From: Akkermansia muciniphila
Lineage (GTDB): Bacteria > Verrucomicrobiota > Verrucomicrobiia > Verrucomicrobiales > Akkermansiaceae
DNA: 53,030 bases
NCBI GenBank assembly: GCA_945901795.1
Contig: CAMDLP010000017.1
Span: 1-53,030, forward strand
Direction of reading: 5' to 3'
Every line of letters starts with the position of its first letter. Position 1 is the stretch's first letter. The notes beneath the pieces were generated by a model. That model ran no database searches and was not told the DNA's origin. It was given only the letters and a program-made list of their open reading frames with translations. The position numbers and the translations under genes were made by a program. This document shows positions 1 through 41,893 of the stretch, in pieces.

Positions 1-2
1 GG

Positions 3-287
3 CGCGCCCGGCAACAATCGCGGGGGCATGAGCGATTTTGGACAGGAGCGAACGCGACGTGCCCCGAAGGGGCGAAGGCGCGTGTGGAGCGCCTGAGTCA
101 ATCGGGCCCTACCGCGATTTCCAACGGCTCCGCCTGCAGGTCCAGCAGCGATACGCCGAGCCATGTGATCAAGGCGATGGGCTACAGCGACGATGAAGCG
201 AATGAGGCGATTCGCCTGAGCTGGTGCCACCTGACGCCGGAGGTGGATTGGAAGGCGGTGGCGGTGAGGATTTTAAGTTTGCGATAA
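3..287 (+). pseudogene. C-terminal fragment of a NifS/IscS-type cysteine desulfurase
   Basis: The last ~55 residues match the C-terminus of class V aminotransferase cysteine desulfurases: the active-site loop region reads [20 protein letters not shown] and is followed by an EAIRLSW block, as in IscS 'GSACxSGSxxPSHVLxAMG...A.gSiRlS'. The loop cysteine is present. The frame stays open to the window edge, but residues before about position 110 do not resemble the rest of a desulfurase, and the upstream DNA looks like low-information intergenic sequence. I therefore read it as a decayed 3' remnant rather than the end of an intact gene; a GTG at 84 could start a 67-residue peptide. If the true gene extends left of the window this would be wrong. 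It ends 8 bp from the stop of the converging gene at 295. Confidence 0.6.
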
Positions 288-294
288 GTCGTTA

Positions 295-897
295 TCAGGC
301 CTCTGTTGCGTCCGAGTCCCTCGGACGGAAATACCCGATAATGCTCCGCTTGGGATCGCGGACACACCACTGGACGTGGCACTTTTCTGAGAGTTTGGAA
401 CCTTCAAAAAGTTCTCCGCCTTCGAAAAATGGCGCTCGCACGGTGTGATACGCTAGAAGCCCCCCGGCTTCACGTGTCTCATGGAGAAAGTTCACAACAG
501 CGCAATCGAGATGCCGTCTTACCAAGTCAGCATCACCTTTGTATCCAGGTTCGTTGGTCGGGAGGGGTTCGCCTGTGATTTTACTTAGACGGCGGAACCC
601 CTCGAATGCCACTTTCACAAGTTCCAAGCTCGATTCCTCGGCGAGATCCAAACAGTTTCCTGGATCAATGATCGCGCCAACAACGGCGGGAGTTTTGATT
701 TTTTGGGATTTTGATCGGGCGAGCAGTTTGGCCCATGAAAGCGCCCTAGCCGGGTTGTTTTCCCAAAAATACGCACCTGATCCAAGCCAGTCGTAAGTGT
801 TGGTGCTGGATCGAACTTCCGCCTGGCCATTGAGTATGGCTTCCGCGACATCCCGATCACAGCCGTGATAGCCCAAAACCAAGCCCGGAATCCTCAT
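295..897 (-). CDS. ADP-ribosyltransferase-like protein, candidate toxin
   Basis: A 200-residue soluble protein. Near the N-terminus it has a 'GYHGC' strand (residues 9-13) and about 30 residues later 'LGSGAYFWENNPARALSWA' (38-56). A His-Gly pair followed by a Gly-x-Tyr-Phe strand and an Ala-rich helix is the layout of PARP/diphtheria-toxin-like ADP-ribosyltransferases (H-Y-[E/Q] class) and of DUF3990-like toxins. Acidic candidates for the third catalytic position lie near 165-170 (FFEGGELFEG). No signal peptide or membrane segment is seen. Its ATG overlaps the stop of the upstream 89-codon gene by ATGA, so the two are translationally coupled in the order expected for antitoxin-toxin operons. 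The fold assignment is by motif only; toxin activity is inference. An alternative is a housekeeping ADP-ribosyl or RNA-modifying enzyme of unknown role. Confidence 0.6.
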   Translation of the reverse strand: MRIPGLVLGYHGCDRDVAEAILNGQAEVRSSTNTYDWLGSGAYFWENNPARALSWAKLLARSKSQKIKTPAVVGAIIDPGNCLDLAEESSLELVKVAFEGFRRLSKITGEPLPTNEPGYKGDADLVRRHLDCAVVNFLHETREAGGLLAYHTVRAPFFEGGELFEGSKLSEKCHVQWCVRDPKRSIIGYFRPRDSDATEA

Positions 898-1163
898 CCG
901 CCGTAGCGTTTCGTGAGACCGCCTGTTTGCTTCACAAATCCGTGTTCGACAAGAAACTCCTTGGCTTTGCCTTCACGAATCAACTTGTCTGCAAAATCGC
1001 GAATGATCCGTATTTCCGCCTTACGATCATCATTCCGAGGGTTGTTGGACTTTTCCTTGGGCACAGGGAAGCAAAGCACGATCATGCCGGGCTGACGAGT
1101 GGAATTTAGGGCGATCACGAGCTCTTCGGTTCTCAAGGAATTGGCTGGATCCGCGAATTCCAC
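894..1163 (-). CDS. small protein coupled to the ART-like gene, candidate antitoxin
   Basis: An 89-residue charged protein with no recognised domain. The start is taken as GTG at 1163, with GAAGGA 3 nt upstream; the frame is open for 19 more codons without a better start. The N-terminal part contains a predicted strand (MIVLCFPVP), the middle is Lys/Arg/Asn rich, and the C-terminal third is a helix ending in 'KEFLVEHGFVKQTGGLTKRYGG'-like sequence. A tail of the form FL..aGi....G.Lt..Y is common in small proteins encoded upstream of toxins and of orphan enzymes, but that is recollection of a pattern, not a family match. It overlaps the downstream ART-like gene by 4 nt. Function as antitoxin or specificity partner is inference. 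Confidence 0.5.
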   Translation of the reverse strand: MEFADPANSLRTEELVIALNSTRQPGMIVLCFPVPKEKSNNPRNDDRKAEIRIIRDFADKLIREGKAKEFLVEHGFVKQTGGLTKRYGG

Positions 1164-1209
1164 TTTTCCTTCGAAGGTCCGTAGCCGATGGTTTCCTCGC
1201 GGAGATGCC

Positions 1210-1344
1210 GTTGCTGAGTTTCATCGGCACCGCACCCGGCGTGCGGCCGATGCGCATGGCGAGATCGACGATCACCGGTTGCTTTCCATCGAACTGCCCG
1301 AAGCGGAGCTTGTGGTAGAGATTGAGGACGATGAGGAGCGGGTC
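1210..1344 (-). pseudogene. N-terminal fragment of an HNH-endonuclease-family protein
   Basis: Translated on the minus strand this stretch gives about 45 residues including 'LNLYHKLRFGQFDGKQPVI' and 'DLAMRIGRTPGAVPMKLSN'. This is the conserved amino-terminal module of a large family of putative HNH restriction-type endonucleases (pattern LaLnLYc..pFGr.h..nP.iieLA..lGRtpsaVamKL.NfasLDp). The match stops at 'KLSN', where the usual 'FASLDP' should follow, and no HNH core is found downstream in any frame. The remnant is immediately followed by the three-palindrome cluster (1354-1419) on its 5' side and by the candidate antitoxin gene on its 3' side. It is a remnant, not a functional gene. Confidence 0.6.
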
Positions 1345-1353
1345 GGAGTGCGT

Positions 1354-1419
1354 GGGACATGTCCCCGCTTTCCCACTGGCCGACATGTCGGCCAGTGGGA
1401 AGCTCCGACATGTCGGAGC
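1354..1419. repeat. cluster of three perfect palindromes centred on ACATGT
   Basis: Three perfect palindromes lie almost end to end: 1354-1365 (12 bp, GGGACATGTCCC), 1370-1401 (32 bp) and 1402-1419 (18 bp, GCTCCGACATGTCGGAGC). All share the central hexamer ACATGT and the last two share CCGACATGTCGG. The second and third abut directly. The 32-bp unit would form a 16-bp stem with no loop as cruciform, or is better seen as a dyad protein-binding site. It is not followed by a T run on either strand, so it is not an intrinsic terminator. I find no other copy of CCGACATGTCGG in the window. Confidence 0.85.
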
Positions 1420-1497
1420 AGTCCAGACCGGCCGTCCCGGCTCAAATACCCATCGTCCCGGCTTTGCGTCCCTTGGGGACCTCTGCGGCTCTGCGGT

Positions 1498-1692
1498 TCA
1501 CCCTTTGCCGTCGAGGTATTTCCAGGTGCCTTGGTAGCGTTTGAAGCGGGAGTGTTCGTGGAGTTCTCGGGCTTGGCCGTCCTCGAAATATTCGGCGCGG
1601 AACTCGACTTTTCCGACCTTGTCTGCGGCTCCGCCCTTGGAGGATCCGAGGATGGTTAGGAAGCGCCAGTTCGCCTCGTGGATCTGCGAAAT
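1498..1692 (-). pseudogene. C-terminal fragment of a YchJ-like (UPF0225) protein
   Basis: On the minus strand the frame ending at the TGA of 1498-1500 encodes 64 residues that run from an in-frame stop at 1693-1695: 'IHEANWRFLTILGSSKGG' then 'VGKVEFRAEYFEDGQARELH' then 'EHSRFKRYQGTWKYLDGKG'. This aligns with the NTF2-like half of YchJ (E. coli: HTEWLGLTV...GFVSFVARFTEGG...ERSRFLKENGQWYYIDG). The N-terminal SEC-C zinc motif of YchJ is missing because the frame is closed before it, and no ATG is present in frame. It is a decayed remnant abutting the helicase gene. The longer open frames on both strands here are shadows. Confidence 0.6.
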
Positions 1693-1740
1693 TCATACCG
1701 GTTGCCCGCCGGCGAATCCGCTGTCAGGGTGGGTGCGCGC

Positions 1741-3783
1741 ATGGCTCGTCAATACACCCTTCACCGCCCGCAAACGGTCGCGGCATCCGGCATCGATTAC
1801 GTGGCGGCGCTGAACGCGGAGCAATACGAGGCGGTGTCCTCGCCGCCGGGGAAGGCGCTGGTCATCGCCGGTGCCGGTTCCGGGAAAACCCGCACGCTGA
1901 CCTACCGGGTGGCGTGGCTGCTAGACCACGGGATCGAGTCGAAACAAGTGCTGCTGCTCACCTTCACGAACAAGGCGGCGCGGGAAATGATCGAGCGCGT
2001 GCGCGAGCTGGTGCCGCACGACACGTCGGACTTGTGGGCCGGGACGTTTCACTCCGTCGGCAGCCGGATCCTGCGGCGGCATGCGGAGGATCTCGGGTTC
2101 ACCCGCTCGTTTTCAATCCTCGACCGCGACGACCAGAAATCGCTGCTCTCCTCGGTCATCGCGAAGTGCGACATCGACACCAAGCAGCGCCGGTTTCCGA
2201 AGGCGGACGTGCTGGCCTCGATGTTCAGCCTCATCGAAAACACCGGCGCGACGCTGGAGGAGGTCATCGCTGCCAGATACGACCATTTCTACGACTGGAC
2301 GGAAAAAATCGAGCTCGTCCGCGCCGGCTACATCGCGAAGAAGCAGGAGACGAACTCGATGGATTTCGACGACCTGCTGGTGATGGCCGTGCGCCTGTTC
2401 GAGGAACGGCCCGACGTGCTGGAACTCTATCAACAGAAATTCAGACACATCCTGGTGGACGAGTATCAGGACACCAACTCGGTGCAGGGCCGGATGATCG
2501 ACCTGCTCGTCGGCGAAAAGAACAGCCTGATGGCGGTGGGTGACGATGCGCAGTCGATCTACTCGTGGCGTGGCGCGGACATGGAGCACATCCTCGGGTT
2601 TCCGGTGCGCTATCCGGGTTCCAAGGTTTTCACGATCGAGACCAACTACCGCAGCGTGCCGGAAATCCTCGATCTATCCAACGCGGCGATCCGCGTGAAC
2701 TCCGGGCGATTTGAAAAAGACCTGCGCTCGTCACGGGAGGCAGCCGGGGCGAAACCGGCGCTCGTCGCGCTGGAAGATCCGCGTGCGCAGGCGGCGTTCG
2801 TGGCGCAGCGGATGCTGGAGCTGCGCGACGAGGGGATTCCGCTGGAGCAGATGGCGGTGCTCTATCGGGCGCATTTCCAGAGCCTGGAAATCCAGATGGA
2901 GCTGACGGTGCGCGGGATTCCGTTCGGGATCACCAGCGGGCTGCGGTTTTTCGAGCAGGCGCACATCAAGGACATCGCCGCGTTCATGCGCTTCGTGGTG
3001 AACCGCCGCGACGAGGTGAGTTTCATGCGGATGGTCAACCTGCTGCCCGGCTGCGGGCCGGTCGCGGCGCAAAAGCTGTGGGATTCCTGGCTGAAGAGCG
3101 GTTGGGCCGGCAAGGAGGAGTTGCCACCGAAGTGGTCGGAGTTGTTTCTGAAATTCAAGGTGCCGAAGAAGGCGGTGAAGCACTGGGAACAACTTTGTTA
3201 TGTCCTGGACGAGCTCACGCCGGGCGGCGAGTTCGCGCGGCCGTCCGAGATGATTTTCAGCATCCTCGAGGGCGTTTATGACGAGTATCTCAAGGCGAGC
3301 TTCGAGAACTTTGAGAACCGCCGCAGCGACATCGAGCAGCTCTCGCAGTATGGCGGCAGCTTCGACGACATCCTCGATTTCCTCGCCCAACTCTCGCTGA
3401 TGAGCTCGGTGGACGGCGAGCCGACCGGCGACAAGAGCGAGCGCGATGACGAGAAAGTCACGCTCTCCTCGATCCATCAGGCCAAAGGGCTGGAGTGGAA
3501 GGTCGTGTTCCTGATCTGGCTGGTGGACGGCCAGTTTCCCAACGGCCGCATCCTCGAAGCCGAGGACGAGCCGATGCTGGAGGAGGAGCGGCGCTTGTTC
3601 TATGTGGCGCTGACGAGGGCGAAGGACGACCTTTATCTAACCTTCCCGATGATGAACCCCAAGTCCTACACCGGCGACGTCATCTGCCGGCCATCGAGGT
3701 TCCTGGAGGATTTCCCGGCGGAGCTCGTCGAGGAATGGAACGTGGGAAGCGACGACGCTTGGAACGACGACGAGCCGTTTTGA
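1741..3783 (+). CDS. UvrD/PcrA/Rep-type superfamily 1A 3'-5' DNA helicase
   Basis: A 680-residue ATP-dependent helicase. All SF1A motifs are visible: Walker A GAGSGKT (44-50), motif Ia 'LTFTNKAAREM', motif II 'VDEYQDTN', motif III 'GDDAQSIYSWRGAD', motif IV 'IETNYRSVPEIL', motif V 'VTLSSIHQAKGLEWKVVF', motif VI 'RLFYVALTRAKDDLYL'. These enzymes unwind DNA during excision repair, mismatch repair and clearing of stalled forks. Length is slightly below UvrD/PcrA (about 720); the variable C-terminal tail is short and ends in an acidic DDEPF, as in several PVC homologues. Start chosen at ATG 1741; an upstream GTG at 1678 would add 21 residues that do not look conserved. It stands alone; upstream lies only the YchJ remnant. 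Confidence 0.93.
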   Translation: MARQYTLHRPQTVAASGIDYVAALNAEQYEAVSSPPGKALVIAGAGSGKTRTLTYRVAWLLDHGIESKQVLLLTFTNKAAREMIERVRELVPHDTSDLWAGTFHSVGSRILRRHAEDLGFTRSFSILDRDDQKSLLSSVIAKCDIDTKQRRFPKADVLASMFSLIENTGATLEEVIAARYDHFYDWTEKIELVRAGYIAKKQETNSMDFDDLLVMAVRLFEERPDVLELYQQKFRHILVDEYQDTNSVQGRMIDLLVGEKNSLMAVGDDAQSIYSWRGADMEHILGFPVRYPGSKVFTIETNYRSVPEILDLSNAAIRVNSGRFEKDLRSSREAAGAKPALVALEDPRAQAAFVAQRMLELRDEGIPLEQMAVLYRAHFQSLEIQMELTVRGIPFGITSGLRFFEQAHIKDIAAFMRFVVNRRDEVSFMRMVNLLPGCGPVAAQKLWDSWLKSGWAGKEELPPKWSELFLKFKVPKKAVKHWEQLCYVLDELTPGGEFARPSEMIFSILEGVYDEYLKASFENFENRRSDIEQLSQYGGSFDDILDFLAQLSLMSSVDGEPTGDKSERDDEKVTLSSIHQAKGLEWKVVFLIWLVDGQFPNGRILEAEDEPMLEEERRLFYVALTRAKDDLYLTFPMMNPKSYTGDVICRPSRFLEDFPAELVEEWNVGSDDAWNDDEPF

Positions 3784-4030
3784 AGCAGGCGCTCCCGATG
3801 GACTCCTGGACCGGGTTGTTTATCGCGCGGCCTCCGCGGCGATGTGTCCTGCAAAGCTGGCGAAACCCATAGGACCGTCGTCAATCTTTGCGGCTGGTTG
3901 CGCGAGGAAAAGCAAAACTGCAAGGAATTTGCTCTCTGCGGTGCTATCTCTTTCCGGCACCTTTCGGCAGCCTACCTTGGCGCTGGTCTTGCGGAGCGGT
4001 GAGGTATGGCGGCGGGTCATCTGACAGAAT
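3784..4030. other. gene-free spacer between convergent genes
   Basis: A 247-bp interval between the 3' ends of the helicase and the polysaccharide deacetylase. Short open frames exist on both strands (about 60 residues each) but show no recognisable family and overlap each other; I do not call them. No strong stem-T-run terminator is visible. Confidence 0.5.
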
Positions 4031-40744: not shown

Positions 40745-41893
40745 TCACTCCGGGATCGAGTCGTAGATTCCCTCCAGCGACAGCACGGTGTAGGCGGTCA
40801 CGAGCACGGGATTGGATTCCATCCAGCGGCCGTTGTCGTTGAGCCACGAGCCGTTCTCGCGCTGGGCGGCGAGGATCTTGTGGCCGAGGTCGTTGCGCCA
40901 GTCGGCTTCGGTGCCGTCTGCGAGTTTGAGTTTATCGACGTTGGCGGCGGTGAGCGCCTTGGACATGGTCTGATAGTAATAGTAAATCCCTTGAGATCCC
41001 ATGCCCGGGTTTTCGGTGAGGGTGTAATTTTTACCGAGCCATTCCTTGACGGCGACGACCCGCGGATCGTCGGCGCTGACCTTGGCGTAGATGAATGAGA
41101 GCAGTCCCGCATATGACATCGAGCCGTAGGAGCGGAGCGCGGTGCGGCCGTTGGGAAGCTTCTCTTCGCCGGCTTTGGTTTCGTTAGGGCCGTAGATGAA
41201 ACCGCCTTTGTTTTTCGGATCGTTGGACGCCCACTCGCTGCTGTTGGTTTCTTCCAGATTCTGGCAGCGGGAAATGAAGGTGACGGCGGCATCCCAGTCG
41301 AGATCCGGTTGGTCGCCGTGCTTGCCGTCCTCGATGACTTTCTTGGAAAGCGCGAGCGCCTCGATGGCGAGGTAGGTGTTGGACATGTCCGCGCGGTCGT
41401 CCTTGGAGCCGTAGCCGACACCGCCGTCGTTGGGGTTGTCGGTTTCCTTTTTCTTGTCGATGTCCCATTGCTCGCCGATGAGGTGCTTGCGGGCTTTGAC
41501 GATGGCGGGCTCGTAGGCTTCGCGGCCGGAGGCGACAAGCGCGGTCACGGCGGTGGCGGTGTTGTAAACCGACAGGCCGCGGTTGTAGATGCCGCCGTCT
41601 TCCTTCTGCTGGGCGAGAAGCCAAGTGAAACCTTTTTCGAGGGGTTCGGGAAAGGGGGCCTTGCGGTCCAGGCTCGGGTCGCGGGCGAGTGCGGTTAGGG
41701 CGAGCGCGGTGAACGCGGGAAGACCGTCGTCGTCCCAGTTGCCTTCGGGTTTCTGCTGGGTTTTCAGCCAAGCGTTGCCGCGGGCGATCGACTGGCGGAT
41801 TTCCTGTTTGAGCGACTCGTGGCGGCCCGGGACTTTTTCGGCGGCACTGCCGATGGCAGTGCCGAGGATGAGGAGCGATGTGAGTAATTTCAT
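40745..41893 (-). CDS. secreted squalene-cyclase/prenyltransferase-repeat protein
   Basis: A 382-residue protein with signal peptide (MKLLTSLLILGTAIGSAAEK). It consists of alpha-alpha barrel repeats of the terpenoid cyclase/prenyltransferase kind: 'GNWDDDGLPAFTALALTALA', 'EDGGIYNRGLSVYNTATAVT', 'GVGYGSKDDRADMSNTYLAI', 'SYGSMSYAGLLSFIYAKVSA' and 'NGSWLNDNGRWMESNPVLVT'. The DxDD acid motif of squalene-hopene cyclases is not seen, and export argues against a cyclase. Such proteins are common and unassigned in Planctomycetota/Verrucomicrobiota. Start set at ATG 41893; the upstream extension is not a signal sequence. Confidence 0.85.
   Translation of the reverse strand: MKLLTSLLILGTAIGSAAEKVPGRHESLKQEIRQSIARGNAWLKTQQKPEGNWDDDGLPAFTALALTALARDPSLDRKAPFPEPLEKGFTWLLAQQKEDGGIYNRGLSVYNTATAVTALVASGREAYEPAIVKARKHLIGEQWDIDKKKETDNPNDGGVGYGSKDDRADMSNTYLAIEALALSKKVIEDGKHGDQPDLDWDAAVTFISRCQNLEETNSSEWASNDPKNKGGFIYGPNETKAGEEKLPNGRTALRSYGSMSYAGLLSFIYAKVSADDPRVVAVKEWLGKNYTLTENPGMGSQGIYYYYQTMSKALTAANVDKLKLADGTEADWRNDLGHKILAAQRENGSWLNDNGRWMESNPVLVTAYTVLSLEGIYDSIPE

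Follow-up and report, generated by a model that had tools for sequence, protein, structure and literature searches.

The window analysed here, a 53,030-nt stretch of DNA from Akkermansia muciniphila, contains an 80-bp element that we interpret as one copy of a non-autonomous, RAYT-dependent repeat of the REPIN type, i.e. an inverted pair of REP-like units with a third arm. We give this reading a probability of about 0.8. The element is most likely a mobile repeat that has been left behind, rather than a control switch. Because its own genome has no cognate RAYT that we could find, it is classed as a REPIN-type remnant and not as a working system in this organism.

Architecture of the element

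An earlier note on this DNA had drawn attention to three perfect palindromes of 12, 32 and 18 bp, each centred on ACATGT, and all three are present as described (Table 1). They had been called abutting; this is so for the second and third, but the first is separated from the second by 4 bp. The palindromes are the arms of one larger unit, and their recurrence is beyond chance. CCGACATGTCGG occurs twice in the window compared with an expectation of 0.00 (none of 100 shuffles reached 2), and GACATGTC occurs four times against 0.69 expected (again, none of 100 shuffles reached 4), the fourth occurrence being an isolated copy at 41382. The unit is bounded by terminal inverted repeats, and has a CATG loop on each of its three hairpin arms in addition to a closing stem. 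On the minus strand the order is tail GGACT, arm 1, middle arm, arm 3 and tail ACTCC.

Table 1. Component parts of the palindromic element, in window coordinates.
Feature	Position	Strand	Description
Whole element	1345-1424	minus	80-bp cloverleaf, inverted REP-like pair plus middle arm; aligned with the 10 other full copies of its genome
Closing stem/outer tail, half one	1345-1349	minus	GGAGT on the plus strand; one mismatch against the other half
Arm 3	1350-1368	minus	GCGTGGGACATGTCCCCGC; core is the 12-bp palindrome GGGACATGTCCC at 1354-1365; one bulged T at 1353
Middle arm	1369-1401	minus	Includes the 32-bp perfect palindrome at 1370-1401; optional across the family
Arm 1	1402-1419	minus	GCTCCGACATGTCGGAGC, a perfect 18-bp palindrome
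Closing stem/outer tail, half two	1420-1424	minus	AGTCC on the plus strand

Copies in the source genome

The source genome assembly comprises 3.28 Mb in 120 contigs and is 95.39% complete. A genome-wide search for the repeat had been proposed in the earlier note, which offered a REP-like repeat family as one option, and that option is borne out. CCGACATGTCGG is found at 18 places in the genome (and its reversed control at none). The element also belongs to a wide family in other genomes, with the link to a transposase clade described below. Similarity and model searches identified 11 full copies, on contigs C3, C4 (two), C13, C17 (the window copy), C18 (two), C40, C49, C53 and C114, together with a degenerate copy on C31 and single-arm matches on C1 and C10. 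The full copies align from end to end with a mean column identity of 89%. For a REP family, eleven full copies plus fragments are few.

A search for a clean empty site corresponding to the C49 copy found none: the orthologous place in a related genome (G012) holds a remnant in which arm 1 is kept and arms 2 and 3 are absent, with 89% identity over the matched stretch. This may be the result of decay, or there may have been a single unit originally.

The window copy lies next to degraded genes, as had been noted. On one side is a truncated, shifted frame (1130-1350) that resembles the start of an HNH_2 endonuclease gene (PF13391) that is intact in G012. On the other side is a minus-strand fragment at 1500-1690, ending ...FKRYQGTWKYLDGKG, which we take to be the C-terminal part of a YchJ/UPF0225 protein; a UvrD-type helicase (1678-3783) lies beyond it. 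The same HNH-like start adjoins the copy at C4:96320 and one copy in G012 (G012:C90, L069), where the intact HNH gene follows. The ATG of the middle arm was considered as the start of the neighbouring HNH gene, and this was dropped; the intact HNH frame in G012 begins further on.

Some further features of these surroundings may be recorded. A second short repeat (GTCCCGGCTTTGCGTCCCTTGGGGACC...) is found at 1443-1481 of the window, with weak matches on C40, C34 and C13 and at other places in the genome. Two overlapping minus-strand frames of 200 and 89 aa occupy 295-1163, have no Pfam match, and could at a guess be likened to a toxin-antitoxin pair. On C18 (G000:C18 49971-51125, L023) two copies in the same orientation are 1,078 bp apart, with two small genes in between that resemble a HepT/MNT-type pair.

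The family in other genomes

The common form of the element is TTTGGAGTGC-(arm)-GCTTT-(middle arm)-AAAGC-(arm)-GCACTCCAAA. Its REP-like unit can be written TTTGGASTGC-[NNNGACATGTCNNN]-GCTTT, and two such units are inverted with their tails outward and an optional third arm. This anatomy is that of a REP dimer (REPIN). A two-unit pattern fits 62 places among the matches listed, 33 of them 78-82 nt in length, 18 of 52-56 nt and 11 of other lengths; the 52-56 nt form (about 53 nt, with two arms) is the same element minus the middle arm.

A scan of the sequence collection with GGASTGCNNNGACATGTCNNNGCNTT found at least 116 stretches. Among the matches listed are Verrucomicrobiota (Akkermansiaceae, Limisphaerales, Opitutales, Chthoniobacterales and others) and MAGs labelled Sumerlaeota, Planctomycetota, Gallionella, Acidobacteria and Fermentibacteria, these names being the records' own labels for bins that can be mixed. 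A model built from the 11 copies of the source genome, whose own scores are by construction, matched 9 of 59 genomes at E 0.001 (source genome included), in 3 of 17 genera. A stricter pattern matched 3 of 387 genomes of a phylum sample, again including the source genome; since the reversed control also matched 2 genomes, the count beyond the source genome is no more than chance, and one of the two other places (G278, L231) is a real element.

We note two variations on the arrangement. At G018:C324 41-391 (L070/L077) three elements follow one another with a period of 135 bp. In other loci (L137, L172, L195 and L225; L130, L159 and L208) other palindromic sequence, e.g. CCCGCTGAGCGGG, takes the place of the tip of the middle arm or extends it.

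Folding and covariation

As DNA, the C114 copy is predicted to fold into a cloverleaf (z -9.3) that leaves nothing unpaired except its three CATG loops. In the two perfect copies tested, DNA parameters favour the cloverleaf over a rod by 0.8-4.1 kcal/mol, while RNA parameters favour a rod that pairs arms 1 and 3 over the drawn cloverleaf by 1.0-2.6 kcal/mol. In the window copy, where one pair of the closing stem is mismatched, the best DNA fold has the three arms without that stem, and the RNA fold is the rod.

In the alignment of the 11 copies from the source genome pairing holds in 94.0% of cells, and both sides have changed in 5 of 34 pairs. A family alignment was made from 35 three-arm elements (34 distinct), comprising 4 of the 11 from the source genome, one from G024 and 30 of 33 from collection loci; L215, L144 and L186 were left out. 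Here 92.8% of cells pair and 18 of the 34 pairs have changed on both sides, a count that kinship among the sequences can inflate. The covariation score is 0.318, compared with 0.088 for shuffled alignments, of which none among 500 scored as high, and 0.011-0.059 in slid controls. Pairing is kept in 99.2% of cells in arm 1, parts of which were required by the patterns and models that found all 35 elements, in 95.8% in arm 3 and in 97.1% in the closing stem; close to the foot of the middle arm, three pairs mostly fail to form.

Association with a clade of RAYT genes

The link to RAYTs emerged on searching loci recruited through the repeat with local Y1 profiles. In two of these (L231 and L193) a Y1 transposase gene lies between elements, encoding proteins of 175 and 174 aa, both of which pass the NCBIfam model for the REP-associated tyrosine transposase (NF047646). 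Four proteins of the clade were scanned with this model, for which the cut-off is 80; P0001 scored 82.1, P0002 91.6, L286 81.1 and L280 77.3, the last just below the cut-off. P0002 scored 21.8 against the IS200 model (cut-off 55), and P0001 matched no family in Pfam-A. The HuH motif NHYH is invariant across a 16-row alignment, as is Y-x3-N (123-127 in P0001). At 1e-28 or better the clade profile matches 18 genomes among 59 relatives, that in G053 being broken by a stop. Of 50 repeat-bearing assemblies (from 54 listed, and chosen for holding the repeat), 19 match the 16-row profile at 1e-15, and 16 of these do so at 1e-58 or better. In a tree, one change sets the 37 clade rows apart from the 12 others (support only 88/64), the branches among the 12 being long.

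The clade genes are flanked by the tail of the element. Both strands of the 600 bp to either side of the gene were searched for TGGASTGC, at 41 clade loci that reduce to 40 on merging L193 and L275, which are one locus. The tail is present on both sides in 31 of the 40, on one side in three and on neither in six. For the 18 clade loci from relatives, which were taken regardless of the repeat, the corresponding numbers are 14, two and two. By contrast, 60 distinct control loci of other Y1 genes, 42 of which have the full 600 bp on both sides, gave one with both sides, one with one side and 58 with neither. The sole both-sided control, L288 (G451:C151), is also the closest RAYT relative that lies outside the clade, and scores 64.5 with NF047646, below the cut-off. 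Its flanks carry tandem repeats, each ~127 bp long and ending in GCACTCCA, so a tail of the TGGASTGC type may reach beyond the clade.

At seven loci (L231, L193, L278, L280, L285, L286 and L292) it is the GACATGTC elements themselves that flank the RAYT gene. In L286, from Haloferula luteola, tandem three-arm elements with arm cores like those of the window stand on both sides; this locus was scored as having neither flank because the tail edge of its elements is not TGGASTGC. Of the 40 distinct clade loci, 11 have GACATGTC within 600 bp, a count that is biased in that all 11 were reached through the search for GACATGTC elements; at the 18 loci that come from relatives GACATGTC is absent over this distance. 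Ten of the 11 are in the tree, and all fall in one 20-row node (support 88/85). Arm sequences differ between RAYT subgroups, e.g. GCGGCAGCCTGCTGCCGC beside L258.

Other Y1 genes are not associated in this way. The source genome has 12 PF01797 matches that are not near elements, and the same is true of those in 8 repeat-bearing relatives. At 41 PF01797 loci from these genomes the element model gave no match. These matches are other Y1 types, some with palindromes of their own. In L085, L087 and L109 short Y1 genes adjoin such different palindromes (CCCAGGGCNNNGCCCTGGG, CCTAGGCCNNNGGCCTAGG), as other REP/RAYT-like systems in the same genus. A further genome (G048, 2.8 Mb in many contigs) has 28 Y1 matches, mostly in open frames of ~320-400 aa, and no palindromes with arms of 8 bp or more were found at three of these loci (L091, L100 and L107).

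Separation of the element from the clade RAYT

No RAYT of the clade was found in the 95.39% complete source genome, where the best profile match (1.3e-10) is to a 356-aa Y1 protein of another type, and its copies therefore look like orphans. Nor was one found in the other 8 of the 59 genomes that match the element model (best 2.9e-14), and the 18 relatives that do have a clade RAYT gave no match to the element model. Because the two sets of genomes do not overlap, the clade RAYT and the GACATGTC type are apart in the nearest sample, several assemblies of which are incomplete.

Proposed mechanism and alternative explanations

By analogy with IS200/IS605 and TnpA-REP, we suggest that when the locus becomes single-stranded the arms would fold, and that one strand could form the closed cloverleaf. 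A small Y1 (HuH) transposase of the RAYT clade would recognize a hairpin together with its GGAST tail and cut beside it, and the element would be copied or moved elsewhere by single-strand transposition. The manner in which REPs spread is described as still unsettled in the part of the literature available (PMC8266576). The copies in the source genome, formerly mobile if the analogy holds, are probably immobile remnants; left with no cognate transposase, they would be decaying by arm loss.

It is conceivable, although improbable, that the resemblance to REP/RAYT systems is one of form only and that a different transposase spreads the element, e.g. a DDE enzyme that uses the terminal inverted repeats in the manner of a MITE. 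Such repeats are indeed present, and the lack of overlap between GACATGTC-element and clade-RAYT genomes among the relatives sampled is in keeping with an unrelated enzyme. Yet the same tail flanks most of the distinct clade RAYT loci, some of them are flanked by the GACATGTC elements themselves, and inspection by eye of the copies in the source genome showed no target-site duplication.

A role at the RNA level, as a terminator, an mRNA stabilizer or a structured RNA, is a good deal less probable again. Reading of the sequence finds no T run after either end of the element, which agrees with the earlier note that this is not a terminator; there is no match to Rfam within positions 1-4000 of the window, and the link to a transposase clade argues for a different role. 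This is despite a strong fold as RNA (-50.5 kcal/mol, z -7.0) and the position of some copies just past the ends of ORFs, e.g. L022 and L024, where the nearest long ORFs end before the element on either side. The element may influence mRNA secondarily, in the way described for REPs.

Very slight, and marginally below that of an RNA element, is the probability of a cooperative operator array, also proposed in the earlier note, whereby a dimeric regulator bound to each GACATGTC dyad would control neighbouring genes. The perfect dyads share this constant core, but the copies are at 11 unrelated places, paired changes in the arms beyond the core maintain the pairing, the closing stem and total length are conserved, and the core itself varies in other RAYT subgroups. 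That the palindromes are a local accident is scarcely credible given the other copies in the genome, the family elsewhere and the G012 remnant at the place orthologous to the C49 copy.

On the REPIN-type reading that we prefer, the family accounts for recurrent perfect ACATGT dyads that might be mistaken for operators. It also provides material on which the spread of REPs could be tested, in that the tail of this RAYT clade is a different one, the substrate has a fixed size with either two or three arms, the hairpin cores vary between transposase subgroups, and some genomes have elements without the enzyme. We would extend this tentatively, at a little under even odds: a RAYT lineage spread over several phyla might use GGAST instead of GTRG and mobilize a closed cloverleaf, the third arm being a working part (either recognized, or needed for folding and excision), and genomes like the present one might keep 80-nt cloverleaves after loss of the enzyme.

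Comparison with known systems

RAYT genes lying between inverted REPs, REP dimers and the co-variation of REP and RAYT are known, and the tails given for them are GTAG/GTGG and CGTC, some subclasses having atypical structures, as far as the available parts of these papers extend (PMC2817692, PMC3733652, PMC6006769, PMC8266576). In the family described here neither superfamily tag is found. The hairpin foot is GGAST in all 35 aligned elements and not GT[AG]G, and the unit does not end in CGTC. As the element is a dimer, flanks RAYT genes and is associated with the right enzyme family, but has neither tail, we class it as REPIN-type outside both the GTRG and the CGTC superfamilies. No description of a GGAST cloverleaf family was found in the REP/RAYT literature searched, which was mostly that outside subscription journals.

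There is a near likeness to the REPINs, BIMEs and REP dimers with RAYT (TnpA-REP) of Pseudomonas, E. coli and Stenotrophomonas. As these are described in the accessible sources, the shared features are inverted palindromic pairs in dispersed copies, units on both sides of the RAYT gene, and a hairpin sequence that varies with RAYT lineage. The window family differs from them in its GGAST tail, in its third palindromic arm that makes a constant 80-nt cloverleaf, and in the perfect GACATGTC core; the source genome differs in lacking a cognate RAYT. A further point in common is that some REP dimers are mentioned as having structured spacers, in the available part of one study (PMC3733652).

The atypical TnpA-Y1 groups (subclass 2.6, and class 3 with a CnGA foot; PMC6006769) are alike in having RAYT-like genes, flanking structures that are not GTRG, and copies elsewhere. 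This likeness is by description, within the part of that source available, and the groups are described there mainly from Bacteroidetes (2.6) and from Planctomycetes, Acidobacteria and Proteobacteria (class 3). With IS200/IS605 the element shares the Y1 HuH enzyme family and hairpins with a guide sequence at the foot; it differs in being a gene-free inverted pair, and the proteins of the clade match the RAYT model.
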